A DNA stretch of 33,298 bases from Rhodothermia bacterium (lineage in GTDB: Bacteria > Bacteroidota > Rhodothermia > Rhodothermales > UBA2364), in the NCBI GenBank assembly GCA_017303715.1, contig JAFLBZ010000044.1, forward strand, positions 1-33,298, given 5' to 3'. Positions 1,816 to 29,253 of this stretch are shown piece by piece (position 1 is the stretch's first letter; every line of letters begins with the position of its first letter). Position numbers and translations under genes: made by a program. Below the pieces are notes generated by a model. The model ran no database searches. It saw only the letters and a list, made by a program, of their open reading frames with translations, and was not told where the DNA came from.

Positions 1816-4689
1816 ATGAGTAAAAAACGATTGTGGGGAATGGTATTCCTGATCTTGGCCTTGCCCTGTGTTTCTTTGTCACAGGTAGGTTATTCGTTTG
1901 GCCGTAACAAGATTCGTTATACAGATTTTGACTGGAAAATCCTCAAAACGGCGCATTTTGATTTTTACCACTATCCCGAAATGGAAGATTTAGCCAAAGT
2001 GGGTGCAGCGATTGCAGAAGAAAGTTATCGTGAGCTTCAGAATAAATTCAATTTCTCGCTTTCTACCCGGGTTCCTATGATTTTTTATGCTACGAACCTA
2101 CATTTTAAGCAAACGAATACGATAGACGGATTTATTCCAGATGGCGTAGGTGGCTTTTTTGAGTTTATGAAAGGCCGCGTGGTCATTCCGGCAAACGGAG
2201 ACCTCAATCGTTTTAAGCGGGTAATCCGTCATGAAATGGTACATGTGTTTACGTTTAACAAATTGGCACGGGTCATGCGGGATTATAGAAAGCCGCCCGA
2301 TCGTTTGCCGCCCCTTTGGTTTACGGAAGGACTTGCGGAGTATTGGTCTGGGGAGGCCGATCATCAACACGAGATGATGATTCGGGATGCCATTGCCTCC
2401 AATTCGTTGGTTCCCTTAGAAGACATTGACCGGATTTACGGGACGTACTTGATGTACAAGCAAGGCGAATCCGTTTGCCGCTTCATTGCAGAAAAATGGG
2501 GAGACGAATATCTATTGCGACTCATCGAGGATTTTTGGAAAGAGACCTATTTTGAAAAACTGATCGAACGCACCTTAAATGTTTCGTATAGGGAATTTGG
2601 GACGGCTTGGGAGGCATGGCTAAAAGCCCAATATTATCCAACTTTGCAAAACAATCTGCCCGCATCGCGTGTATCTGCACCTGTTTTTTGGCGCGGCTAT
2701 TATATGAAGCCCGTGGCATTTAATGACAAAAAGGGGCAGCGGTGGGTCGTAGCCAATGGAAGTTCTGGCTCCACAGGTAGTCTTTTTAAGACCAAAGTGA
2801 ATCAAAACTATGTGGTCGAGAAAAAGCCGAAGGTTATCCTGCGAGGGGAGCGGAACGAGCGGTTCGAGGCATTTCACTTTTTCGAGAGCAGGATGTCGGT
2901 AAATGCTAACCAAGAACTGGCTTTTGTCACAAAAAGTGGCGAGCAAGATGTAATCCATGTCTTGGATTTAACGCGAAATGTGGTCACAAAGACCATTAAA
3001 ATTCCTGAACTGGTAGCCATTTATTCGCCATCGTGGCATCCAAATGGGAAGCAAGTGGTGTTTACAGGCATCGAGAAAAGTGGCTTTTCGGATATTTATA
3101 CCTACCATCTCGAAACACAAGAAACCCACAAATTGACGCATGATCTACACGATGACCGCGACCCCGATTGGTCGCCGGATGGTCAACAGATTGTTTTCTC
3201 AAGCGATAGAACCGGATCTGGCAATGGTGCTTATAATTTGTTTCTTATAGACCCAGCACATAGAACCGTAAAACACCTTACAGAAGGGCCGCAATTGGAT
3301 CTAAGTCCACGTTTCAGTCCAGATGGGAAATCGGTGGTTTTTATCAGAACAAAAAAGGAAGATCGCAAATGGACTGCACAAAATGCGTGGACGGTTTCGC
3401 TGGGAACATCACCAATCCTAAGACAACTGACCAATACCACTTCAGTATTGTTTGATCCTTACTGGACGGCAGACGGCCATTTATTGGCAACGGCTATGGA
3501 TGGATTCCGGTTCCAAGTGCGTTCTTTTGGGAAAGTTGACTCCTTGCAGCAAATCCACCCCGAACCCACGCCTGAACCCGCAAGCAAACTTCTTCCTGCT
3601 CCTTCTTGGACCGAAGCCGCAACGGATAGTTCCTCGACTTCAACCAATCCTTATCGTCGAAAATACACCTTAGATGCCGCCCAAACGGTCATTAACCAGA
3701 CGGCACTGTACGGCACAAATGCAGGCGGTTACATGGTTTTTTCCGATATGATGGGCAATGATTATTTTTTGGCTACCTTGTATAATACCTCGCGAAACCA
3801 ACGGGACTTCCTCCGCTCCATGAGTTTTTCCCTCTCGCGCTATCAATTCCAGAAACGCACCAGTACCGCTTATGGGCTGTATCGGAATGGCGGGTTACGT
3901 TATGATTTAACCGATCCTGATGCCGCTGCCGTATATCCGGCGGTTTGGGAACATGAATTGGGCGGATACGGGGCTTTGTCGTATCCGATTAGTTTCTTTG
4001 ATCGTTTCGAGGTTTCTACGGGGCTAAATTGGAGTGATAAGCAGATATTAACCAAAGACTTACGGCGAAAGGCACTTTTGTTGTCGAATACCATTTCCTA
4101 TGTTCACGATTCGGCCTTATATGGCATGAATGGCCCGATGGATGGTTTTCGGGCAAACTTAACTGCTGGCTATACCACCGATGTTTGGCGCTCCAATGTG
4201 AGCTATTATACCTTGATTGCTGATGTGCGCAAGTATTTTCGGATATTACCAACCGTGACCTTTGCGGTTCGGGCGATGGGGCGGATGAACGAAGGCCGTG
4301 AAGCACGCTTGTTTTATATGGGCGGTTCTTGGGACTTGCGGGGCTATCCTTTATTTGATATTCGCGGCAGCAAAACGTGGTTTGGCTCAGCGGAACTTCG
4401 CTTCCCATTGGTGGAGAATCCGCTGCTGATTGCGCCCGTTTTAGCGCCATTTGGCGTTGTCAACTTGCGGAGCGCTCTCTTTTTTGATGCCGGTCATGCG
4501 TGGAACAAGGAATATAATTACCAAGAACCCCAGTTGATGACCGGAAAGACGCACTTTTCGTCTGGCATCGGGTTTCGATTAAACCTCTTTGGCGGTTTAT
4601 TGCTCCGGTACGATCTGGGCTGGCGGATCAACGAGGATTTTTCTGAAAAAAAATGGTTCCGCCAATTCCTCTTTGGCTGGGATTTCTAA
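1816..4689 (+). CDS. Outer-membrane fusion: HEXXH peptidase domain, PD40 propeller and Omp85/BamA-type barrel
   Basis: I start the protein at the ATG at 1816 (957 residues). It begins with a clear signal peptide (MSKKRLWGMVFLILALP, cleavage likely near SLSQ), and the 33 upstream in-frame residues look non-coding. Residues about 24-270 form a gluzincin-like domain with HEMVH at 139-143 and a third zinc ligand candidate, E171, in WFTEGLAEYW, as in peptidase MA-type families. Residues about 400-545 hold at least three PD40/TolB-like propeller repeats (SPSWHPNGK, DPDWSPDGQ, SPRFSPDGK). A Pro/Ser/Thr-rich linker (about 580-615) precedes a C-terminal Omp85/BamA-type barrel. The barrel has the LRGY motif at 841-844 (the (V/I/L)RG(F/Y) signature), a late FFDAGHAW strand and a terminal Phe. 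No POTRA domains are evident. The next gene starts 9 bases downstream, so an operon is likely. The protein probably sits in the outer membrane; whether the protease-like part faces the periplasm or the outside is unknown. Confidence 0.88.
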   Translation: MSKKRLWGMVFLILALPCVSLSQVGYSFGRNKIRYTDFDWKILKTAHFDFYHYPEMEDLAKVGAAIAEESYRELQNKFNFSLSTRVPMIFYATNLHFKQTNTIDGFIPDGVGGFFEFMKGRVVIPANGDLNRFKRVIRHEMVHVFTFNKLARVMRDYRKPPDRLPPLWFTEGLAEYWSGEADHQHEMMIRDAIASNSLVPLEDIDRIYGTYLMYKQGESVCRFIAEKWGDEYLLRLIEDFWKETYFEKLIERTLNVSYREFGTAWEAWLKAQYYPTLQNNLPASRVSAPVFWRGYYMKPVAFNDKKGQRWVVANGSSGSTGSLFKTKVNQNYVVEKKPKVILRGERNERFEAFHFFESRMSVNANQELAFVTKSGEQDVIHVLDLTRNVVTKTIKIPELVAIYSPSWHPNGKQVVFTGIEKSGFSDIYTYHLETQETHKLTHDLHDDRDPDWSPDGQQIVFSSDRTGSGNGAYNLFLIDPAHRTVKHLTEGPQLDLSPRFSPDGKSVVFIRTKKEDRKWTAQNAWTVSLGTSPILRQLTNTTSVLFDPYWTADGHLLATAMDGFRFQVRSFGKVDSLQQIHPEPTPEPASKLLPAPSWTEAATDSSSTSTNPYRRKYTLDAAQTVINQTALYGTNAGGYMVFSDMMGNDYFLATLYNTSRNQRDFLRSMSFSLSRYQFQKRTSTAYGLYRNGGLRYDLTDPDAAAVYPAVWEHELGGYGALSYPISFFDRFEVSTGLNWSDKQILTKDLRRKALLLSNTISYVHDSALYGMNGPMDGFRANLTAGYTTDVWRSNVSYYTLIADVRKYFRILPTVTFAVRAMGRMNEGREARLFYMGGSWDLRGYPLFDIRGSKTWFGSAELRFPLVENPLLIAPVLAPFGVVNLRSALFFDAGHAWNKEYNYQEPQLMTGKTHFSSGIGFRLNLFGGLLLRYDLGWRINEDFSEKKWFRQFLFGWDF

Positions 4690-4698
4690 GGTTTTGCG

Positions 4699-5904
4699 AT
4701 GGAAAAAAAGCCCTCAAATGCCCATTACCGGATGTTTTTTTCCCATTATTGGGTGGTTTTTTTTGGCTTATGGTGGCTGCAAGGGTGTGCAAGTGTCAAA
4801 TTGCCGGAAATACAAGCCAAACCGGAAGATTGGATCAAAGAAGATGGGCCGGAAGGTGGCTATTATCTTGCGCACTCGTTTAAGGCGCCCTTCGAGGTTG
4901 CGTGGCAATATAATTTAGCGTCGGGGATGGGACCTTCTGCCCTTGCTGGGGTACGTGGTGTACTGCTTGCCGCCACCTTGAAAGGCGAAGTTCATGCCAT
5001 TGGGACGGATCGAGGGCGAAAAATAGGGTATGTACCGCTGGGTGAAGGCATACGTGGTCTTCCCATCCTTTGGGGGGACGTTTTGATGGTCGCAAGTACT
5101 AATGGTCGTTATGCAATGGCAGCATATCAATACACCCGCTCAGACATTAAATGGCGACGCAAAGGGCTTAAAAGTGAATCTGGCTTGGTTAAAATGGGGA
5201 AATTCGTAGGTTTCGTGGATGCCAGAGGAACCGTGATCGCCATTGATCCGGCGGATGGGCGGGAGGTCTGGAAGACCACTTGGCTCGAACAGGCTACCGC
5301 CGTCTATGGAACGCCCGTTTTTGTGAATGACTTGCTGCTACTGGCATCGGGAAAAGGAGATGTGGTGGCGCTTCATGCCGAAACAGGAAAAGTGGCTTGG
5401 TTGAAGCAGGTACATCAGCCTGTTTACAACGCACTCGCGGCACGGTTTGGTGAGGTCTGGGTTCCTACCACGAGAGGACAACTCTTCCGCTTGTCCATTG
5501 AAGATGGGCGCGAATTGGGTGTTTTTGACCTCGAAAATGAAGCCGTAAGAATGGCTACGCCTGCAATCGGGCCGGATGGAGTGGTATTTGGTGCAAGCGA
5601 TGGCTTTATCCGTAAACTTAGGGCACAAGATGGCCGCTTAGAATGGACGTTTCATGCCAAGGGTGCGTGTACAGCGCCCGTCCTCTGGGCTGGATCCGAG
5701 ATTTTTGCAGGCTGCCAAGACAAAACCCTCTACCGGATTTCCGCAGATAACGGCGCATTGATCGGTCAATTGGTGCTAAAAGGCCGCATCAAATCCGTTC
5801 CGGTGCTTTATGAAGACCGACTTTACCTCGCCCAAGAACCTAACCAGTTGGTCGCCATCGGAAAGCCAGTGAAAAAATCCCGTTCCGCAAATCCGGAGAA
5901 TTAA
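4699..5904 (+). CDS. PQQ-repeat beta-propeller lipoprotein, BamB-like
   Basis: The protein has 401 residues and begins with a lipoprotein signal: a hydrophobic run and the lipobox LQGC with the acylated Cys at residue 30. The rest is a series of PQQ-type propeller blades. Each has the A-x-D-x-x-x-G-x-x-x-W kind of turn, for example AIDPADGREVWKT and ALHAETGKVAWLK, then RLSIEDGRELG, KLRAQDGRLEW and RISADNGALIG. This matches BamB (YfgL), the propeller lipoprotein of the BAM complex, in length and layout, although PQQ propellers also occur in unrelated proteins. The gene follows an Omp85-barrel gene by 9 bases, and the next gene starts 2 bases after its stop. A working partnership with the barrel protein upstream is a reasonable inference. 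PQQ binding as a cofactor is not implied. Confidence 0.85.
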   Translation: MEKKPSNAHYRMFFSHYWVVFFGLWWLQGCASVKLPEIQAKPEDWIKEDGPEGGYYLAHSFKAPFEVAWQYNLASGMGPSALAGVRGVLLAATLKGEVHAIGTDRGRKIGYVPLGEGIRGLPILWGDVLMVASTNGRYAMAAYQYTRSDIKWRRKGLKSESGLVKMGKFVGFVDARGTVIAIDPADGREVWKTTWLEQATAVYGTPVFVNDLLLLASGKGDVVALHAETGKVAWLKQVHQPVYNALAARFGEVWVPTTRGQLFRLSIEDGRELGVFDLENEAVRMATPAIGPDGVVFGASDGFIRKLRAQDGRLEWTFHAKGACTAPVLWAGSEIFAGCQDKTLYRISADNGALIGQLVLKGRIKSVPVLYEDRLYLAQEPNQLVAIGKPVKKSRSANPEN

Positions 5905-5905
5905 C

Positions 5906-6667
5906 ATGAGACCCTTTGCCATTTGCTTGTTGTTGCTTGTGGTTGTCCAGAATAGTGTCGGACAAGGTTTGGGGCGTTTGTCCATTCAGGCAAGTTCGGA
6001 TAAACTGGTTTTTCTTCATCTTACGGAAGAAGACCTTGTGCTTGATAAAGATACTGTGCTTCAGCTCCCCGCAGGCTCTTATCCGTTCTCGATTGCGGTT
6101 ATCTGTGGGGAGAAAACGGACGTCAGTAACTTCCAGTCTAAATTTAAAAATGTTATAAAAATAACTGAAGGTGTAGAGGAGAGTTTAAGTTCACAAGAGT
6201 TTAATCGCTTTATCCTTACATCCTTTCCTTTTGGCGCTACCGTTCAGACGAAGGATGGAAATTTGGGAACAACCCCACTTTCGACGGTTCAGGCACATTC
6301 AGCTTTACCCATTCGTCTTCGTAAATTGGGTCACAAAACAGCTGAAATAACCTTGAAACCCTGTGAACGTACTTCTTTGGTCTTGGATAAACTGCCCACA
6401 GACCCGCGTGCTGTTTCCATTTGGCAAAAATTGCCCGCAAAAGAATATCGTTGGGTATCGGTACTGGGGGGAACGGCTATGGTGGCTGGAATCGTTTTTT
6501 CCATTCAAAACAAATTCAAGGCGGATGACCTGTACGACCGTTATAAAGAAAATGGCGATCCTTTGTTGCGCCCGCAAATCAAGGCTTTAGACACCAAAGC
6601 AGGGTGGGGGTTGGCCTTTGCTCAAACTGGATTAGTCGTTGTTGTGATAAGATTGGTACTGAAATGA
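5906..6667 (+). CDS. PEGA-domain membrane protein
   Basis: The 253-residue protein starts at an ATG one base after the previous stop, so it is very likely co-transcribed. It has a signal peptide (MRPFAICLLLLVVVQNSVGQ). A PEGA-type domain at about residues 105-155 contains SFPFGATVQTKDG, a GTTP turn and RLRKLGHKTAEITL. Two hydrophobic C-terminal segments follow, at about 183-203 and 233-252. PEGA domains are small beta-sandwiches found in surface and periplasmic proteins and are thought to mediate binding. The region before the domain (residues 20-100) is not recognised. The gene closes the three-gene envelope cluster. No clear terminator follows; the downstream stretch holds a decayed repeat. 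Confidence 0.75.
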   Translation: MRPFAICLLLLVVVQNSVGQGLGRLSIQASSDKLVFLHLTEEDLVLDKDTVLQLPAGSYPFSIAVICGEKTDVSNFQSKFKNVIKITEGVEESLSSQEFNRFILTSFPFGATVQTKDGNLGTTPLSTVQAHSALPIRLRKLGHKTAEITLKPCERTSLVLDKLPTDPRAVSIWQKLPAKEYRWVSVLGGTAMVAGIVFSIQNKFKADDLYDRYKENGDPLLRPQIKALDTKAGWGLAFAQTGLVVVVIRLVLK

Positions 6668-8473: not shown

Positions 8474-10084
8474 TTAGATCGTTGGAAGTCCTAATTCCAA
8501 TAAAAAGCGGTTGTGCGTTTCTCTTGCCTTGTCAATGTCTTTGTCAAGGTCAGCGAGTTTTTTGTTTACCTCTTTCAAGTCTATGAGTTCTTCGTCTAAC
8601 GATGTGCTTACATATCTTGAGATATTTAGGTTAAAATCGTTTTTCACGATTTCGTCCATTGACACTCTACGAGCGTAACGGGTTTCCTCTGATCGTGTTT
8701 TATAGGTATTTACGATTTTCTCGATATGGGTGGGCAATAACGTGTTTTGTCGTTTGCCTTTTTCAAAGTGGTCAACGGCATTGATGAATAAAACATCGTC
8801 AAATTTCTTACACTTCTTTAAAACCAAAATACAAACCGGAATACCAGTCGAGAAAAACAGATTGGCAGGTAGTCCGATAACAGTGTCAATATTACCGTCC
8901 TCTAAAAGTTTTTTTCTGATTTTTTCTTCTGCTCCGCTTCTAAATAAAACACCATGCGGCAAAATAATTGCCATCGTTCCTTCTTTACTCAAGAAATGAA
9001 AACCATGTAATAGAAATGCAAAATCGGCTGCCGACTTTGGAGCAAGGCCGTAACTTTTGAAGCGAAAATCTTCTCCCATTACTTCCTTTGGTTCCCAACG
9101 ATAACTAAAAGGCGGGTTGGCTACAATGGCATCAAATTCTAATTTCTTTGAAGGATTTATTTCATTTAAAATATCCCAATCATTGATTAAAGTATCTCCA
9201 TGGTGAATTTCAAATTCGGTATCTTTTACGCCATGCAAAAGCATGTTCATTCGTGCTAAGTTGTAGGTCGTGATGTTTTTTTCTTGTCCGTAAATTTTGC
9301 CGATTGTTCCGTTAGCATCGGTCATTTTTTTACGAACATTGAGCAACAAGGAACCTGAACCACAGGCAAAGTCTAAAACCCGTTCAATCTTTTTCTTTTC
9401 ACCTGAACTTGGGTCTTGGCTGTCGAGCGTTACAATTCCTGAAAGTATGTCTGAAATTCTTTGCGGTGTATAAAACTCTCCTGCTTTTTGCCCTGAACCT
9501 GCTGCAAATTTTCCAATCAGAAATTCGTAAGCATCGCCTAAGTAGTCAATGTTTTTATCAAAATTATTGATGCCTTCCGCAATTTTTTGAATGATATTGC
9601 AGAGCTTTTTATTTCGTTCTTCGTAGTTCTTGCCGAGTTTATCAGAATCCAAATTGATTTCAGAAAACAAGCCCTGAAAAGTGCTTTCAAAAGATTCGTT
9701 CTCTATGTATTTAAAACCATCTTGCAAGGTGCGAAGCAATTCTTTGCTTTGCGTTTTTGCCAATTCCGCAATGCTGTTCCATAAATGCGTTGGCTCAATG
9801 ACATAGTGAACCTTTCTTCGCATTTGCTTTTCAAATTCCGTAACATCGGTTTTGTTTTGTTCATACCAAACGGAAAGCGGAGTTCGTTTATCATTGTCTT
9901 TTAGAACAGGAAAATCTTTGCCCAATTCCTTTTTGGCTGCTGCTTCGTAATTGTCGCTTAGATAACGTAAGAACAAAAACGAAAGCATATAATCTCGGAA
10001 CTGGTCAGCGTTCATTGCTCCTCGCAATTCGTCTGCAATTTTCCAAAGTGTATTTCCTAATTGTGTTTGATTATTGTCTGTCAT
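8474..10084 (-). CDS. hsdM: Type I restriction-modification DNA methyltransferase subunit HsdM
   Basis: HsdM transfers a methyl group from S-adenosylmethionine to adenine in the recognition site set by HsdS. It is also needed for restriction by the HsdR2M2S complex. Seen here: an N-terminal helical domain (LWKIADELRGAMNADQFRDY), the SAM-binding motif DFACGSGSLLL and the catalytic N-P-P-F of N6-adenine methyltransferases. Counted from the upstream ATG at 10108 these motifs are at about residues 246-256 and 331-334; subtract 8 for the start used here. I start at 10084 (MTDNNQTQLG) because the family begins there. The ATG at 10108 would overlap the preceding nuclease gene by 11 bases and is also possible. 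The protein has 536 residues, normal length. It is the last gene of the operon, unlike the usual hsdM-hsdS-hsdR order. Confidence 0.96.
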   Translation of the reverse strand: MTDNNQTQLGNTLWKIADELRGAMNADQFRDYMLSFLFLRYLSDNYEAAAKKELGKDFPVLKDNDKRTPLSVWYEQNKTDVTEFEKQMRRKVHYVIEPTHLWNSIAELAKTQSKELLRTLQDGFKYIENESFESTFQGLFSEINLDSDKLGKNYEERNKKLCNIIQKIAEGINNFDKNIDYLGDAYEFLIGKFAAGSGQKAGEFYTPQRISDILSGIVTLDSQDPSSGEKKKIERVLDFACGSGSLLLNVRKKMTDANGTIGKIYGQEKNITTYNLARMNMLLHGVKDTEFEIHHGDTLINDWDILNEINPSKKLEFDAIVANPPFSYRWEPKEVMGEDFRFKSYGLAPKSAADFAFLLHGFHFLSKEGTMAIILPHGVLFRSGAEEKIRKKLLEDGNIDTVIGLPANLFFSTGIPVCILVLKKCKKFDDVLFINAVDHFEKGKRQNTLLPTHIEKIVNTYKTRSEETRYARRVSMDEIVKNDFNLNISRYVSTSLDEELIDLKEVNKKLADLDKDIDKARETHNRFLLELGLPTI

Positions 10085-10097
10085 GGTGCTGTTATTC

Positions 10098-11129
10098 TTA
10101 TGCTTCATTCTTTTTTTCTTGACTGGCTTTTATTTCTTCCATCAATAAGGCTTGTAACTCATCTTTGGGAAACAACAGTTGATATTCGGCTACGCCTATG
10201 GGTTTATTGATGTCTTGTAAAGCAATTTCGACATCCAAATGGTCTTTATCGACACAAAGAATAATGCCGATAGATTGGTTTTCGTTTTCGCCTTTTTCCA
10301 ATTTATCGAGCAAGGAAAGATATAGGTTCATTTTGCCAACATATTCGGCTTGAAAACCTCCTATTTTCAATTCGATGGCCACTAACGAACGCAAACCACG
10401 ATGAAAGAAAAGCATATCTACAAAATATTCCTTTCCGTTGTACTCCAAGCGGTGTTGGTTACCAATGAAGCTAAAACCCTTGCCTAATTCCAACACAAAC
10501 GATTTTATTTTTTCTACCAATCGTTTCTCAAGTTCAGTTTCTTTTACTTTTTCCGTAATTCCTAAAAAGCCAAGATTGTACGAATCTTTAAACACTTCGT
10601 TAGCATAATCAAGGTCAATAGCAGGAAGTGTTTCCTTAAAATTATGCGATTGGATTTGCTTTTGGGCATGGGTGTAGCTGTCCATTTTTATGGCATTGAG
10701 CAACCAATCTCTACTCCAACCTTTACCTACGGCTTCAGTAGCATAAAAAGCTACAGCATCAAGCGATTGAACCTTGTTGATTAACAGTAAATTGTGTCCC
10801 CACGGCAAAACTGCGACAGCCTGTCGCAGTTTCTCATCTGCCAAATGATAACGCTCATAAAAGCGTTTCATATCCCACAAATTGCGAGGTGAAAGCCCCA
10901 TATCGGGAAATTCCTTTTTTAGGTCAATAGAAAGTTGATTGACCACCCTGCTGCCATAGCCTTCTGCTAATTGCTTCTCAAACAGTAATTTTCCCAAGTT
11001 CCAATAAACGGAATTAGTAGCCTTTGCCAATTGCCTAGCAACCAAACTTCGGGCCGAATGTATTTCTGCAACAGCTTGTTGCAAAATTTCACCATACGCT
11101 GGCTGGCTTATATTTAATACTTCGCTCAT
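10098..11129 (-). CDS. YhcG-family PDDEXK nuclease (DUF1016)
   Basis: The 343-residue protein has an N-terminal DUF1016 helical domain (about residues 10-160, with YWNLGKLLFEKQLAEGYGSR and LSPRNLWDMKRFYERYH). A C-terminal PD-(D/E)XK nuclease domain follows (about 170-325). The nuclease core is visible as Asp238 in YFVDMLFFHRGLRSLVAIEL and Glu253-Leu-Lys255 at its end (D, 14 residues, E-x-K). YhcG-type proteins often sit beside or inside type I restriction operons. Their action is not well described, and an accessory or independent anti-phage nuclease is the usual guess. Here the gene lies between hsdS and hsdM on the same strand, and its stop overlaps the upstream alternative start of hsdM. 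A 138-base gap with an AATCCT-type repeat separates it from hsdS. Confidence 0.92.
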   Translation of the reverse strand: MSEVLNISQPAYGEILQQAVAEIHSARSLVARQLAKATNSVYWNLGKLLFEKQLAEGYGSRVVNQLSIDLKKEFPDMGLSPRNLWDMKRFYERYHLADEKLRQAVAVLPWGHNLLLINKVQSLDAVAFYATEAVGKGWSRDWLLNAIKMDSYTHAQKQIQSHNFKETLPAIDLDYANEVFKDSYNLGFLGITEKVKETELEKRLVEKIKSFVLELGKGFSFIGNQHRLEYNGKEYFVDMLFFHRGLRSLVAIELKIGGFQAEYVGKMNLYLSLLDKLEKGENENQSIGIILCVDKDHLDVEIALQDINKPIGVAEYQLLFPKDELQALLMEEIKASQEKKNEA

Positions 11130-11150
11130 TCTGTTGCTTCATTTAGAATG

Positions 11151-11265
11151 TCTGCATTAGGATTTTTAGGATTAGTGGATTGTAGGATTTTTGATTGTGA
11201 GGATAATTTAATCCTATCGTCTTTTAATCTTATCATTTTTTAATCTGTTTAATTCTAATTCTGAC
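11151..11265 (-). repeat. AATCCT-rich inverted-repeat element, copy 1
   Basis: This fills most of the gap between hsdS and the yhcG-type gene. It has many AGGATT units on one arm and AATCCT/AATCTTAT units on the other. In operon direction the ends are GTCAGAATTAGAATT and AATCCTAATGCAGACA, which are nearly inverse to each other. It is clearly related to copies 2 and 3, and a long imperfect hairpin is likely. Confidence 0.8.
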
Positions 11266-11267
11266 AA

Positions 11268-11394
11268 TTACGGAAACAAACCCTGCAACAAGCCCTTTTT
11301 ATGCTGCTGTAATAATGTGATTTTTTGCGTTTGGGCAGTGATTAATTCGTCCAATGATGAAAGGCAGGAGGCGATTTTTTGTTGTTCCTTTGGG
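11268..11394. repeat. Direct repeat inside hsdS, C-terminal copy (partner 11865-11991)
   Basis: Bases 11268-11394 align without gaps to 11865-11991 (offset 597). They encode the two conserved helical spacers of HsdS. Such repeats are substrates for recombination that swaps target recognition domains. Confidence 0.85.
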
Positions 11395-12440
11395 TCTACG
11401 GGATATGAAATTGGATATTCTTTAATAGAATCTTTATCGCCTCGTGGCATTTTCACTCCTTCTACATTTTTCATTATGTAACTAATAAAAGCATCATTCC
11501 TCAAAAGACAAGATAAGAATACCTCTGAAACAACTGAATTAGCCCGAATTACGATTACATCATTAGAACATGCACCATTTTTATCCGCAAACCAAACCTT
11601 CTTTAAGTATGGGCGAATATTTGAAATTAATATATCCCCAATTTTATACTTAGTGAAATTACCAGAAGTAGGAAGTTTTGAAGCAAAAGAAACACCTGCA
11701 TAATCAGGTAATAGGTTTTCAGTGCTTATGTAAGAATTAATTGAAAGGTTCTCTAATTGAGTTTTTTCATTTACAAAAGTTGCCACCTCTGTCAGAATTT
11801 CCACCACCCACTCACCACTATCCTCAAACTCCTTAAATCGCACTTTCGGCACGGTTTCTCCTGCTTGCGGAAATAAATTTTGCAACAAGCCTTTTTTATG
11901 TTCTTTCAGCACTTCTAACTTTTGGTTCTCTGCTGATATGACTTCATCTAAGGACGTAAGGCAAGCAGCAATTTTTTGTTGTTCTTTTGGTTTAGCAACA
12001 CCAATTGTGTGATGTTTATAGTCTGAATAATAGATATGTGGTATTCCAGCACCTTTAACATAACTTGAAAAGTCAATGGTATTCAACAGATAATATGCCC
12101 ATGCTATTAGGTATTTATTTTCATCCTTAGATTTTAGTGAAGAAAGCGTTCCTAAAATTGAAGTTTCAGTTTTGCAAAGATTTAATCTTCCAACACCAGA
12201 ACCATCTTTTACTATTGAAATATATTGTTTAGAATGTTGATATGTATTTATATATCCAACTATACTATCAGCTCCATAAACTGCATACCCATTTTTCCTT
12301 AGTTCGAGTTTATTTAATGCCAATGATGAACTTTGAGCGTCTAATATATCGCCAATTTGCATTAAGTTCCAACCTTCCTCAGTTGTAAAATCAGGAAACC
12401 TCAGTTTCGGCACTAATTTATTTTCGTTGTTGTTGCTCAT
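11268..12440 (-). CDS. hsdS: Type I restriction-modification specificity subunit HsdS
   Basis: The 390-residue protein has the two-part HsdS layout. Target recognition domain 1 begins after the conserved KLRFPDF (about residues 12-18). The first conserved helical spacer is KEQQKIAACLTSLDEVISAE, ending HKKGLLQNLFP. The second half starts PKVRFKEF, and the C-terminal spacer is KEQQKIASCLSSLDELITAQ, ending HKKGLLQGLFP. Each recognition domain reads one half of a bipartite DNA target; the target cannot be deduced here. The start codon overlaps the stop of the preceding GxxExxY gene (ATGA), so translation is probably coupled. The two spacers are also repeated at DNA level, which favours domain shuffling. 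The recognition domains are AT-rich, as is usual for these variable regions. Confidence 0.95.
   Translation of the reverse strand: MSNNNENKLVPKLRFPDFTTEEGWNLMQIGDILDAQSSSLALNKLELRKNGYAVYGADSIVGYINTYQHSKQYISIVKDGSGVGRLNLCKTETSILGTLSSLKSKDENKYLIAWAYYLLNTIDFSSYVKGAGIPHIYYSDYKHHTIGVAKPKEQQKIAACLTSLDEVISAENQKLEVLKEHKKGLLQNLFPQAGETVPKVRFKEFEDSGEWVVEILTEVATFVNEKTQLENLSINSYISTENLLPDYAGVSFASKLPTSGNFTKYKIGDILISNIRPYLKKVWFADKNGACSNDVIVIRANSVVSEVFLSCLLRNDAFISYIMKNVEGVKMPRGDKDSIKEYPISYPVDPKEQQKIASCLSSLDELITAQTQKITLLQQHKKGLLQGLFP
11865..11991. repeat. Direct repeat inside hsdS, central copy (partner 11268-11394)
   Basis: This is the central helical spacer of HsdS, aligned without gaps to the C-terminal copy. 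The best-kept stretches are gcaacaagcc and attttttgttgttc. Confidence 0.85.
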
Positions 12441-12931
12441 TTGTCTGAATTTGGATTTTTTGGATTGGTAGATTTTAGGATTTCGGATTGTGAGGATAAA
12501 CCAATCCTATCATCTTTTAAGCTGTCCAATCCTAATTCTGACTTGTATTGTTTGTTATCTGGGTGGTTTACATTGTACACCCGTTTGAATTCTAAACTTT
12601 TTGCTCCGAAGTTAATTAGCAATCCGATTGGTAAATTATACGCCTGACAATAGTTCATTGCCTGTGCTAAGTGTACATCTTCTAATTTTATCAATGCTTT
12701 GAGTTCTAGCATTATACTTTTTTGTACAAAAAAGTCCACTCTTCTTGTACCAATATCATGTCCTTCATAATAAATGGTCATCTCCATTTCACGTTCAAAG
12801 CCTAATCCTTGCTTTTGCATTTCAATAGCCAAAGCACGTTGATAGATTACTTCTTGAAAACCATTTCCCAAAGTTGTATGTACCTTCATAGCACACCCGA
12901 TAATTTTATGCGTAAGTTCTTGGTGTTTCAT
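12437..12931 (-). CDS. GxxExxY protein with a repeat-derived C-terminal tail
   Basis: The 164-residue protein carries the family motif G-F-Q-E-V-I-Y at residues 24-30. It also has a PD-(D/E)XK-like core: Asp66 in RRVDFFV and Glu76-Leu-Lys78 in IMLELKAL. GxxExxY proteins are small nuclease-fold proteins of unproven function that are common in Bacteroidota, often near mobile or defence genes. The conserved family fold ends near residue 125. Residues 131-164 (from SELGLDSL to NPKNPNSDK) are encoded by the AATCCT-type repeat element, so the tail looks like a later addition. The stop overlaps the hsdS start (ATGA). The gene starts 60 bases after the hsdR stop, so it is the second gene of the restriction operon. 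Confidence 0.9.
   Translation of the reverse strand: MKHQELTHKIIGCAMKVHTTLGNGFQEVIYQRALAIEMQKQGLGFEREMEMTIYYEGHDIGTRRVDFFVQKSIMLELKALIKLEDVHLAQAMNYCQAYNLPIGLLINFGAKSLEFKRVYNVNHPDNKQYKSELGLDSLKDDRIGLSSQSEILKSTNPKNPNSDK
12444..12542 (-). repeat. AATCCT-rich inverted-repeat element, copy 2, inside coding sequence
   Basis: In operon direction the copy starts GTCAGAATTAGGATT and ends AAATTCAGACA, so its ends are inverse to each other. It shares the core GATGATAGGATT, then TTATCCTCACAATC, with copy 1. It encodes the last 34 residues of the GxxExxY protein and ends two bases before the hsdS start codon. Confidence 0.85.
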
Positions 12932-12942
12932 TTGATTTTCAA

Positions 12943-12997
12943 TTTAATCTTCCATTTAATCCTATCGTCCTTTAATCCTAAAAATCCTAATTCAGAC
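12943..12997 (-). repeat. AATCCT-rich element, copy 3 (one arm only)
   Basis: In operon direction it starts GTCTGAATTAGGATTTTTAG and continues with AGGATT/AAGGACGATAGGATT units. The TGA inside its first bases is the hsdR stop codon. The second arm seen in copies 1 and 2 is missing. Confidence 0.75.
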
Positions 12998-15982
12998 AGT
13001 ATATGCTTTCAATCCGCTAATCTCCCTGCCTTCTGCCTTTTTTCTTAATACAGGCACAAGCTCGTCCATCAATGCCAGTTCTCGTTTGGTGCGTTCTTTC
13101 CAACCTAAGTCTAAGGGTGCAAAGAGGTCGCTCAATTTGTCGGCATCAAAAATCATTCGGCTAATGATGGCATCGGTAAATTCGTTTAATGCCGAAAATT
13201 CTAATCCGTTATTCTGTGCTATCTCGGCTAATGTTGCAGCAATCTTTTCTTCTTTGAAAGCTTGGTAGCCGTCTTTTATTTGATGCTCATTGAGTGCTTT
13301 GCCAACTTCCAATTTTTTGATGTAGTCAATCATGTCTTCCCGTTCTTCCATCAGGTTGGCACTGCTACTCAACACACCAATCAATTGGTCGCGGGTCATT
13401 TTCTGCTTTTTGGGTGTGTCTTGCGTGTATTTGGCAATCAGGTTCATGATGTAATCATAATCCACTACCGAAGAAGCAAACAACACAAATTCAAAATCCA
13501 ATTGCTGGATGGTTGAAGGGGCATTGTCGCCTTCTTTTTGCTGCATTTCTTTGAGTTGTTTGGCAATTTCCAAATACGAACTGCGGAAAGAACGCAATTG
13601 ATCTTCGGGCATTAACTCCTCAATCTTTGATTTTTGTTGCTCGGTCAGGTCGGTGTATTGATCTAATTGTATTTTTAGGCTTTGCACTTCCTTAAAGCGA
13701 TTGATAAACTCCACACGGGCAGCATCGCCTTTGATGTTGTAAACTTCCTGCGGTTCGGCGGCCATATTCTTGTCTGTCATCCACTTTTCCATTGCCTTAA
13801 CTGCCTCTTGGTATTTCTCAATGACCTTCGGAGCAGGGTCAACCAACCAAATTTCTTTGGCTCGTTCAGCAACACTTTCCCCGCTGAATAAAGCAATCGC
13901 TCTATCCACTTCGGCTTGTTGTTGGCGGAAATCTAAAATGTTGCCATAGGGTTTGGTGTCGTTCAAAATACGGTTGGTTCGGCTGAAAGCCTGAATCAGT
14001 CCGTGGAATTTCAGGTTCTTGTCCACGTACAAGGTATTCAAATATTTGCTGTCAAAACCTGTGAGCAACATATCCACCACAATTACCAAATCAATTTTGT
14101 TTTTGCGTGGATAGTCGGCATTGCTGAACTTTTGAAATTTGATGCGTTGCTGAACATCTTGGTAATACAAGTCAAACTCTGTAATTCTGTGATTGGTGCC
14201 ATATTGCTTGTTGTAATCGCTGATGATGGCTTCTAATGCTTTTTTCTTTTGTTCAGGTTCGACCTTGTTGTCTTCCTTTTCTTGCTGCAAATCATCTTGA
14301 AATTGCTTTATATCCGCTGCATTTTTTTGGCTATTTTTATCATCTTCTTTTGCCATTAATTGAGCTGGCGGAGAAAAGACACAGGCGATATTTATCGGTA
14401 GAGGCGTTGCATGCAACGCCTCTACCGATTTGAATAAATCATAATATTCAATGGCATCATTGATAGATGCCGTTGCTAAAATGGCATTGAAACGTCTGCC
14501 GTGGGTGGCGGCATCATGTTTTTTCAGAATGGCATTTACGACTGCCTTTTTATGGTCGGTGCTGCCAACGGTTACATTTTTTTCAGGTTTGAAATAGTCA
14601 ATGTGAAAACGCAACACGTTCCTGTCTTCTATCGCATGCGTGATGGTGTAGTTATGTAACGAATTTTGGAAAATGTCTTTTGTAATTACATAGGAACCAA
14701 CTGTTCCATCAATTTGCTTGTAGGTTGCGTTATCCTCAAAAATGGGCGTTCCAGTAAAACCAAATAGCTGTGCTTTTGGGAAAAACTCCTTAATAGCTTT
14801 GTGATTTTCGCCAAACTGTGAACGGTGGCATTCGTCAAAAATGAAAACGATGCGTTTGTCGCTTAATGCTTGTAAGCGTTCTTTGTAGTTGTTTTTGTTG
14901 TTTGGGTCTAAAGCTAAACCTAATTTTTGAATGGTCGTAACAATTACTTTGTTGGCGTAATCTTCCGAAAGCATTCGCCTTACTAAAGTTTCTGTGTTGG
15001 TGTTTTCTTCAACACAACCTTCCTGAAACTTGTTGAACTCCTCACGGGTTTGTCGGTCAAGGTCTTTACGGTCAACCACAAACAAACATTTTTCAATATT
15101 CGGGTTGTCTTTGAGCAAGGTAGAAGCTTTGAAGGACGTTAGCGTTTTTCCGCTTCCAGTCGTATGCCAAATGAAGCCGTTGCCTTTGTGTTCTTGAATA
15201 GAATTTACAATTGCTTTAACTGCATAAATCTGATAGGGTCGCATGACCATCAATTTTTGTTCGCTTGCCACCAATACCATGTATTTGCTGATCATTTGGC
15301 TTAGGGTGCATTTGCTCAAAAACTTTTCGGAAAAGTCGTCTAAGTGAGTGATTTTTTTGTTGTCCTCATGAGCATATTGGTAAATGGGCAAAAATTGTTC
15401 ATCCACATTAAAACTGAAATGCCCCGAGTTGTTGTTGGCAAAATAATAAGTGTTTGAACGGTTGCTCACAATAAACATCTGCATAAAGCAAAGCAATGAA
15501 TTGATGTAGCCGTTTCCTGGGTCGCTTTTGTAGTCCACAATTTGCTGCATGGCCTTTCGTGGGCTAACCTCCAAACTTTTCAATTCAATTTGCACAACGG
15601 GAATGCCATTAATCAACAAAATCACATCATAACGGTGGTGGCTGTTGCTTGTGTTGATTCTTAACTGATTGATTACCTCAAATTCGTTTTTGCACCAGTC
15701 TTTGATGTTTACCAAAGTGTAATGCAAAGGCGTTCCGTCCTCACGGGTAAAAGTGTTGATTTCTCTTAGTCGTTTGGATGATGCAAAAACGTCTGGATTT
15801 ATGATTTCCTTAGAAAGTCTTTCAAATTCTGCATCCGTCAAATTGACGCGATTGAGCGCTTGAAACTTCTCACGGAAATTCTTTTCAAGCGAATCCTTGT
15901 CCCGAATGTCTGGCCTATGTGTGTATTTCAGGTCAGTCAATTTGGCAATCAAACTATTTTCTATTTGTATCTCTTTTGTCAT
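12992..15982 (-). CDS. hsdR: Type I restriction endonuclease subunit HsdR
   Basis: HsdR is the ATP-driven translocase and nuclease of the type I complex. I start at MTKEIQIEN (15982), where homologues begin; an upstream in-frame ATG exists at 16021. The protein has about 996 residues. Seen in order: a PD-(D/E)XK nuclease core with Asp119 (RYDVILL) and Glu133-Leu-Lys135 (QIELKS); Walker A TTGSGKT ending near residue 280; the DEAD-type box DECH at 383-386; and the later helicase motif QAFSRTNRI with the preceding LLTGFDSKYLNTLYVDKNL. All catalytic residues are present, so the enzyme should be active. One oddity is a perfect 36-bp palindrome (14394-14429) in frame at about residues 518-530, between the helicase lobes. 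The stop codon lies in an AATCCT-type repeat. Confidence 0.95.
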   Translation of the reverse strand: MTKEIQIENSLIAKLTDLKYTHRPDIRDKDSLEKNFREKFQALNRVNLTDAEFERLSKEIINPDVFASSKRLREINTFTREDGTPLHYTLVNIKDWCKNEFEVINQLRINTSNSHHRYDVILLINGIPVVQIELKSLEVSPRKAMQQIVDYKSDPGNGYINSLLCFMQMFIVSNRSNTYYFANNNSGHFSFNVDEQFLPIYQYAHEDNKKITHLDDFSEKFLSKCTLSQMISKYMVLVASEQKLMVMRPYQIYAVKAIVNSIQEHKGNGFIWHTTGSGKTLTSFKASTLLKDNPNIEKCLFVVDRKDLDRQTREEFNKFQEGCVEENTNTETLVRRMLSEDYANKVIVTTIQKLGLALDPNNKNNYKERLQALSDKRIVFIFDECHRSQFGENHKAIKEFFPKAQLFGFTGTPIFEDNATYKQIDGTVGSYVITKDIFQNSLHNYTITHAIEDRNVLRFHIDYFKPEKNVTVGSTDHKKAVVNAILKKHDAATHGRRFNAILATASINDAIEYYDLFKSVEALHATPLPINIACVFSPPAQLMAKEDDKNSQKNAADIKQFQDDLQQEKEDNKVEPEQKKKALEAIISDYNKQYGTNHRITEFDLYYQDVQQRIKFQKFSNADYPRKNKIDLVIVVDMLLTGFDSKYLNTLYVDKNLKFHGLIQAFSRTNRILNDTKPYGNILDFRQQQAEVDRAIALFSGESVAERAKEIWLVDPAPKVIEKYQEAVKAMEKWMTDKNMAAEPQEVYNIKGDAARVEFINRFKEVQSLKIQLDQYTDLTEQQKSKIEELMPEDQLRSFRSSYLEIAKQLKEMQQKEGDNAPSTIQQLDFEFVLFASSVVDYDYIMNLIAKYTQDTPKKQKMTRDQLIGVLSSSANLMEEREDMIDYIKKLEVGKALNEHQIKDGYQAFKEEKIAATLAEIAQNNGLEFSALNEFTDAIISRMIFDADKLSDLFAPLDLGWKERTKRELALMDELVPVLRKKAEGREISGLKAYTV
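14394..14429. repeat. Perfect 36-bp palindrome inside hsdR
   Basis: The arms atcggtagaggcgttgca and tgcaacgcctctaccgat are exact reverse complements with no spacer. The core GTAGAG...CTCTAC is the type seen in dispersed short palindromes of Bacteroidota. Because it is a perfect palindrome, both strands encode the same peptide in one frame (SVEALHATPLPI). Confidence 0.97.
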
Positions 15983-16375
15983 GACGAAATGGGCTAAGTT
16001 CAAAATACCTTTGTTTGTCAAATGATCCTCTTGGCTTTCCGCAAGTTCCTATTTCCACGCTTACACGGGCAATAATTTCCGGAGGAAGTTTGCATACAAA
16101 ATACATCATCTTATTGGACGACCAAAGTAAAACACCTTTTTTTAGGCTCTTTTCTCTGTATATCCTATTCTATGTACATGAGATAGCTTCATTGGGCTAC
16201 GGATGATCTGGTTTTTCATTGCAACCAAGAACGTTGTGTACCATATTCAAGTCCTTCTCCATTCTCCTTGAATAACAACCATTTAGCATACATACGCTAC
16301 TTGATTTTTAGGAGGATGCGAAACCACAAGCGGACTTGGTGGTAAGTAGGTTCAACCAAAACAACTTGTAAAACG
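15983..16375. other. Intergenic region at the right edge of the restriction island
   Basis: This lies between the divergent hsdR and DUF547 genes. No protein is recognisable; a 63-residue frame at 16015-16206 has no family features. On the minus strand there are TATTTTG sequences that resemble a shortened Bacteroidota -7 element, but without a well-spaced -33 element. No tRNA or att-like repeat was seen. Confidence 0.5.

Positions 16376-27729: not shown

Positions 27730-29253
<1,524 letters not shown>

Follow-up and report, generated by a model that had tools for sequence, protein, structure and literature searches.

A Metallopeptidase-Propeller-Omp85 Fusion Protein and Its Conserved Lipoprotein and PEGA-Like Gene Neighbors in Bacteroidota

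Question and locus

Omp85 barrels are mostly understood via their POTRA domains or single passengers. A contig from a Rhodothermia bacterium (Bacteroidota; GenBank assembly GCA_017303715.1, contig JAFLBZ010000044.1) encodes a protein in which a putative zinc protease and a propeller precede the barrel, closely followed by genes for a propeller lipoprotein and a membrane protein. What might an Omp85 barrel do with a protease in front of it, and do the three genes belong together? We addressed these questions in the whole 33,298-nucleotide stretch analyzed (the window) and in related genomes. The features discussed below are as follows:

1816..4689, + strand: fusion protein of 957 amino acids (aa) with signal sequence, gluzincin domain (Peptidase_MA_2), TolB-like propeller, and 16-strand Omp85 barrel (Pfam, NCBIfam, AlphaFold2, fold comparison)
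1885..2679, + strand: metallopeptidase domain, aa 24-288, with HEMVH at 139-143 and WFTEGLAEYW at 168-177 (AlphaFold2, PDB matches, alignment)
2665..3552, + strand: TolB-like propeller, aa 284-579 (VIA-align to TolB; PD40)
3667..4686, + strand: BamA-type barrel, aa 618-957, with 16 predicted strands, WDLRGY, and terminal FGWDF (AlphaFold2, fold comparison)
4699..5904, + strand: BamB-like PQQ-propeller lipoprotein with lipobox LQGC (profile searches, lipobox, homologue alignment)
5906..6667, + strand: PEGA-like protein with N-terminal signal or anchor, PEGA region, and C-terminal transmembrane (TM) hairpin (profile searches, hydrophobicity features)

Fusion protein

The fusion is encoded by a single gene that starts at an ATG at position 1816 and yields 957 aa; an alternative in-frame TTG at 1717 would give 990 aa, and the nearest relatives are likewise 957 aa long. 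Pfam profiles matched Peptidase_MA_2 (E value, 3.5e-8; 33.9 bits against a cut-off of 32.4), PD40 (2.2e-24), and Omp85 (PF01103; 1.9e-15; 57.7 bits against a cut-off of 24), and no POTRA match was found in the same profile search. Every NCBIfam model fell below its cut-off, and the BamA equivalog scored 39.7 bits (cut-off, 297.15). AlphaFold2 with an alignment of 29 relatives (pLDDT 78.8, pTM 0.74; all structure models are single chains) predicted, in order, a helical N-terminal domain, a propeller, and sixteen strands (618-955), with a low-confidence linker at aa 582-608 between propeller and barrel. Pfam, AlphaFold2, and fold comparison thus bear out the protease-propeller-Omp85 fusion in one 957-residue protein that an earlier note had read from this DNA. 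The note had also described no visible POTRA domains, in agreement with the profile search and the linker, and had proposed structure prediction as a check; both a 16-strand barrel and a gluzincin fold were predicted.

Metallopeptidase domain

The putative zinc site that had been placed at H139, H143, and E171 lies at exactly these positions, within a catalytic-type set that comprises H139, E140, H143, E171, and E175, the last in WFTEGLAEYW. These five residues are invariant in 37 orthologues of the same order. Across the phylum, in an alignment that includes a second paralogue lineage, HEXXH, E171, and E175 are invariant in 55/55 proteins, all of which therefore carry the HEXXH motif plus downstream Glu ligand of gluzincins. 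The isolated domain, modeled with AlphaFold2 on 52 sequences (pTM 0.82), has a predicted gluzincin fold, and all of its PDB matches listed are gluzincins (M30, M9 collagenase, M1, M61, LTA4H). The best structural matches among those listed are M9 collagenases and the M30 enzyme lugdulysin (Z 14-17, rmsd 3.3-4.8, 224-241 residues; for lugdulysin, Z 17.1, rmsd 4.3, 231 residues). Vibrio collagenase gives a weak sequence match (E value, 0.05) that spans the WxxEGxAEY active-site motif common to both proteins. The M9 and M30 enzymes differ from this domain in sequence (10-15% identity) and are not fused to an outer membrane barrel.

Conservation in the 37-orthologue alignment is highest at aa 81-200 (mean identity, about 0.75), compared with 0.26-0.63 across the propeller. 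The invariant catalytic residues and the position of the best-conserved stretch in the protease fit selection for catalysis, and on these sequence patterns the domain very probably binds zinc and catalyzes. A degenerate protease was ruled out by the invariance of the catalytic residues.

Propeller, barrel, and membrane topology

The propeller superimposes on TolB (VIA-align Z 27.6, rmsd 2.4, 246 residues) and the barrel on BamA (8xnb_A; Z 24.2, rmsd 3.4, 308 residues). The PF01103 score above the cut-off and the sixteen predicted strands with an RGF/Y loop-6 motif identify the latter as an Omp85 barrel. The LRGY motif and terminal Phe claimed for this protein were both found, as WDLRGY at aa 839-844 and as a chain end of FGWDF, and R842 and F957 are invariant in 55/55 proteins. 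Because WDLRGY occupies the loop-6 position of BamA, between predicted strands 11 and 12, the protease and propeller at the N terminus are expected on the periplasmic side. This argument leans on established Omp85 topology, and we consider the modeled periplasmic orientation likely.

Partner genes

Gene 2 begins 9 bases after gene 1, as had been stated, and the gap between genes 2 and 3 is 1 base, not the 2 bases given earlier. The BamB-like PQQ lipoprotein proposed for gene 2 was recovered as a PQQ propeller (PF13360, 2.1e-28) with a lipobox (LQGC), the combination expected of BamB. The BamB equivalog TIGR03300 matched all 39 of 39 gene 2 orthologues at E values up to 0.001 (best, 1.6e-63), and gene 2 itself scored 98.9 bits, far below the cut-off of 285. 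An AfsK-kinase propeller model matched 37/39 orthologues, and designed and kinase propellers matched the gene 2 profile equally well or better. Given the score below the equivalog cut-off and the matches to other propellers, gene 2 can be called BamB-like but is not established as BamB. All PF13360 matches in the genome fall within it, and it is thus the only PQQ/BamB-type gene found there. The lipid-acceptor Cys is aligned in 41/41 gene 2 homologues, with acidic residues rare directly after it. Surface lipoproteins of Bacteroidota carry an acidic export signal (PMC12578637); unlike them, the gene 2 lipoprotein appears from its sequence to have no obvious surface-export signal.

Gene 3 encodes a hydrophobic N-terminal stretch and a conserved C-terminal TM hairpin, and its product is likely an inner membrane protein. 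The earlier designation as a PEGA membrane protein holds for the hairpin and for the orthologues, 19/34 of which matched PEGA (PF08308) at E values up to 0.01 (best, 6.2e-15); the protein's own score of 14.6 bits is below the Pfam cut-off of 20.8, so that the label is drawn from its orthologues.

Conservation of the gene order

We sampled 296 Bacteroidota genomes, of which 70 carry this barrel-protein type; the sampled genomes are not independent, and many share ancestry; a Fisher value that takes no account of this was set aside. The lipoprotein gene lies directly after the barrel gene in 66/70 and is present elsewhere in the remaining 4. For three genomes whose genes are cut or divergent, we relaxed the thresholds. 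The 66 include G060, where inspection revealed a BamB-like gene with a weak score, along with a PEGA-like gene, beside the barrel gene, as well as G011 and G101, which were counted despite low lipoprotein scores and cut or split genes. Gene-by-gene reading of 42 loci placed the lipoprotein gene at +1 in 40 of them and found a PEGA-like gene at +2 in 35. In one genome (G312), the lipoprotein and PEGA-like genes lie on a contig that lacks the barrel gene. In two of the four genomes with a displaced lipoprotein gene (L144 in G303 and L147 in G224), a PEGA-like gene still follows it.

The retention of the arrangement in 66/70 genomes, well beyond the taxonomic order, answers the check on the three-gene order that the earlier note had proposed and rules out chance gene order. 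Judged from its distribution across these genomes, the three-gene order is ancient. With mechanical start calls, many lineages show a 13-base overlap between the longest lipoprotein frame and the end of gene 1, which suggests translational coupling. A scan for promoters and terminators returned nothing above shuffles.

The conserved neighborhood of the trio is housekeeping and holds no hint of a substrate. Upstream flanks in many other lineages (L048-L065, L095-L114) contain conserved genes whose sequences read as those of a polyprenyl synthase, HPr, a SIS-domain isomerase, and PTS enzyme I; a universal stress protein-like gene takes their place upstream of the operon in the genus of the window. 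Elsewhere in the window are a type I restriction-modification cluster (HsdM, HsdS, and HsdR; 8474-16021, - strand), with a YhcG-type PDDEXK nuclease and a PDDEXK_3 protein encoded between the Hsd genes, and a gene for an HtrA/DegP-like trypsin-PDZ protease (27730-29253, - strand).

Relatives in the genome

Four further proteins with HEXXH and a PD40 propeller are encoded on other contigs (C11, C41, C1, and C21; L041-L044), and in the genome scan those on C11 and C41 also scored for an Omp85 barrel. The C11-type paralogue lineage is widespread in the phylum, and no conserved lipoprotein neighbor was found among its loci compared. A separate gene adjoining two OmpH/Skp-like genes encodes canonical BamA with its POTRA repeats, and other POTRA-bearing Omp85 proteins are also encoded. 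The fusion trio is therefore an extra machine, and an identity as canonical or broken BamA was ruled out by the POTRA-repeat BamA elsewhere in the genome.

Comparison with known systems

The main text of Heinz and Lithgow (2014, PMC4104836) describes a POTRA-less WD40-Omp85 subfamily with a propeller closest to TolB, likens it to a BamA-BamB fusion, and proposes a BamA-BamB-like platform. The 957-aa protein has the same TolB-closest N-terminal propeller directly before an Omp85 barrel with no POTRA, and by the published definition its architecture fits this subfamily. It differs in its peptidase domain and operon partners, neither of which is named for the subfamily in that main text, where the "metallo" Omp85 group is defined by PF00149, a domain other than this peptidase. 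The earlier statement that POTRA or passenger domains sit before the barrel in known Omp85 proteins is corrected by the same source, since POTRA-less subfamilies, including WD40-Omp85, have been described since 2014. Our literature search found no paper on the fusion or its operon, and the words peptidase and WD40 are absent from two 2025 papers on the Bacteroidota BAM.

Three other systems invite comparison. The trio resembles BamA-BamB in having an Omp85 barrel (Z 24.2 to BamA) and a PQQ-propeller lipoprotein, but the fusion lacks POTRA domains and gene 2 scores 99 bits against the BamB cut-off of 285. POTRA domains are the docking site of BamB in E. coli. The patatin-Omp85 protein PlpD is alike in joining an enzyme domain to an Omp85 barrel, but combines a patatin lipase with one POTRA domain rather than a metallopeptidase with a propeller. 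As a working analogy, the M48 enzyme BepA of E. coli is likewise described as a periplasmic zinc metallopeptidase at an Omp85 machine, but it belongs to another family and is a soluble protein in its own right, whereas the peptidase here is fused to the barrel (PMC8423444).

Possible functions of the trio

The best overall explanation, to which we give somewhat less than an even chance, is a three-part envelope machine. The 957-aa protein would be an outer membrane Omp85 barrel with a periplasmic TolB-like propeller topped by the gluzincin zinc metallopeptidase. The BamB-like lipoprotein, anchored in the outer membrane's inner leaflet, would dock on it, and the PEGA-like protein would tie the machine to the inner membrane. 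Outer membrane or exported clients would be captured by the propellers and the barrel, and the peptidase may cleave them, maturing them or removing those that have stalled. This would be close to the action of BepA at BAM in E. coli, except that here the protease is part of the barrel protein itself. That the three proteins form a physical complex seems probable; the lipoprotein neighbor conserved in 66/70 genomes counts for the partnership, and gene order alone does not prove contact. As for function, client processing or quality control, which we draw from analogy, has nearly as much for it as against it.

The same parts could instead make an accessory barrel insertase, whose barrel folds particular outer membrane proteins while the propellers replace POTRA docking and the protease only trims or proofreads. 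The BamA-type barrel with its loop-6 RGY motif and C-terminal signal, the conserved BamB-like partner, and the platform proposed for WD40-Omp85 (PMC4104836) are all consistent with it. We nevertheless consider it unlikely, as POTRA domains are absent, the genome already encodes canonical BamA and other POTRA-bearing Omp85 proteins, and conservation is strongest in the protease, not the barrel. PlpD offers a published parallel of an enzyme-Omp85 barrel fusion for another alternative, in which the barrel delivers the peptidase together with the propeller to the cell surface, following the model proposed for PlpD-type Omp85 passengers. The predicted barrel topology puts the N terminus in the periplasm, the partner lipoprotein is without an obvious surface-export signal, and surface display would require a folded passenger of ∼550 residues, including a propeller, to pass through the membrane, all of which makes a surface protease improbable. 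The earlier note had offered both a periplasmic gate and a surface protease; loop 6 between strands 11 and 12 and the lipoprotein signal favor the periplasmic side, and surface delivery is the weaker reading. Finally, the domain may be a zinc-binding structural or peptide-binding module in what is mainly a Tol-Pal-like scaffold linking outer membrane, wall, and inner membrane. TolB as the closest propeller (Z 27.6) and a third gene that likely encodes an inner membrane protein point that way, but all residues of the catalytic set, the general-base Glu among them, are invariant in 55/55 proteins, leaving this idea a slim chance.

Taking the envelope machine as the preferred reading, we tentatively suggest that the trio could act in the outer membrane of Bacteroidota as a self-contained protease-insertase, one that has quality control as part of its Omp85 barrel and a BamB-like lipoprotein dedicated to it. 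The presence of BamB in Bacteroidota had been called unclear, and in this genome the single PQQ/BamB-type gene that was found goes together with an Omp85 protein that lacks POTRA domains. If true, a phylum-wide family with a protease in place of POTRA domains and a constant propeller lipoprotein would be another coupling of outer membrane traffic to proteolysis. The trio points to an unstudied machine that may cut or check proteins at the outer membrane of many Bacteroidota.
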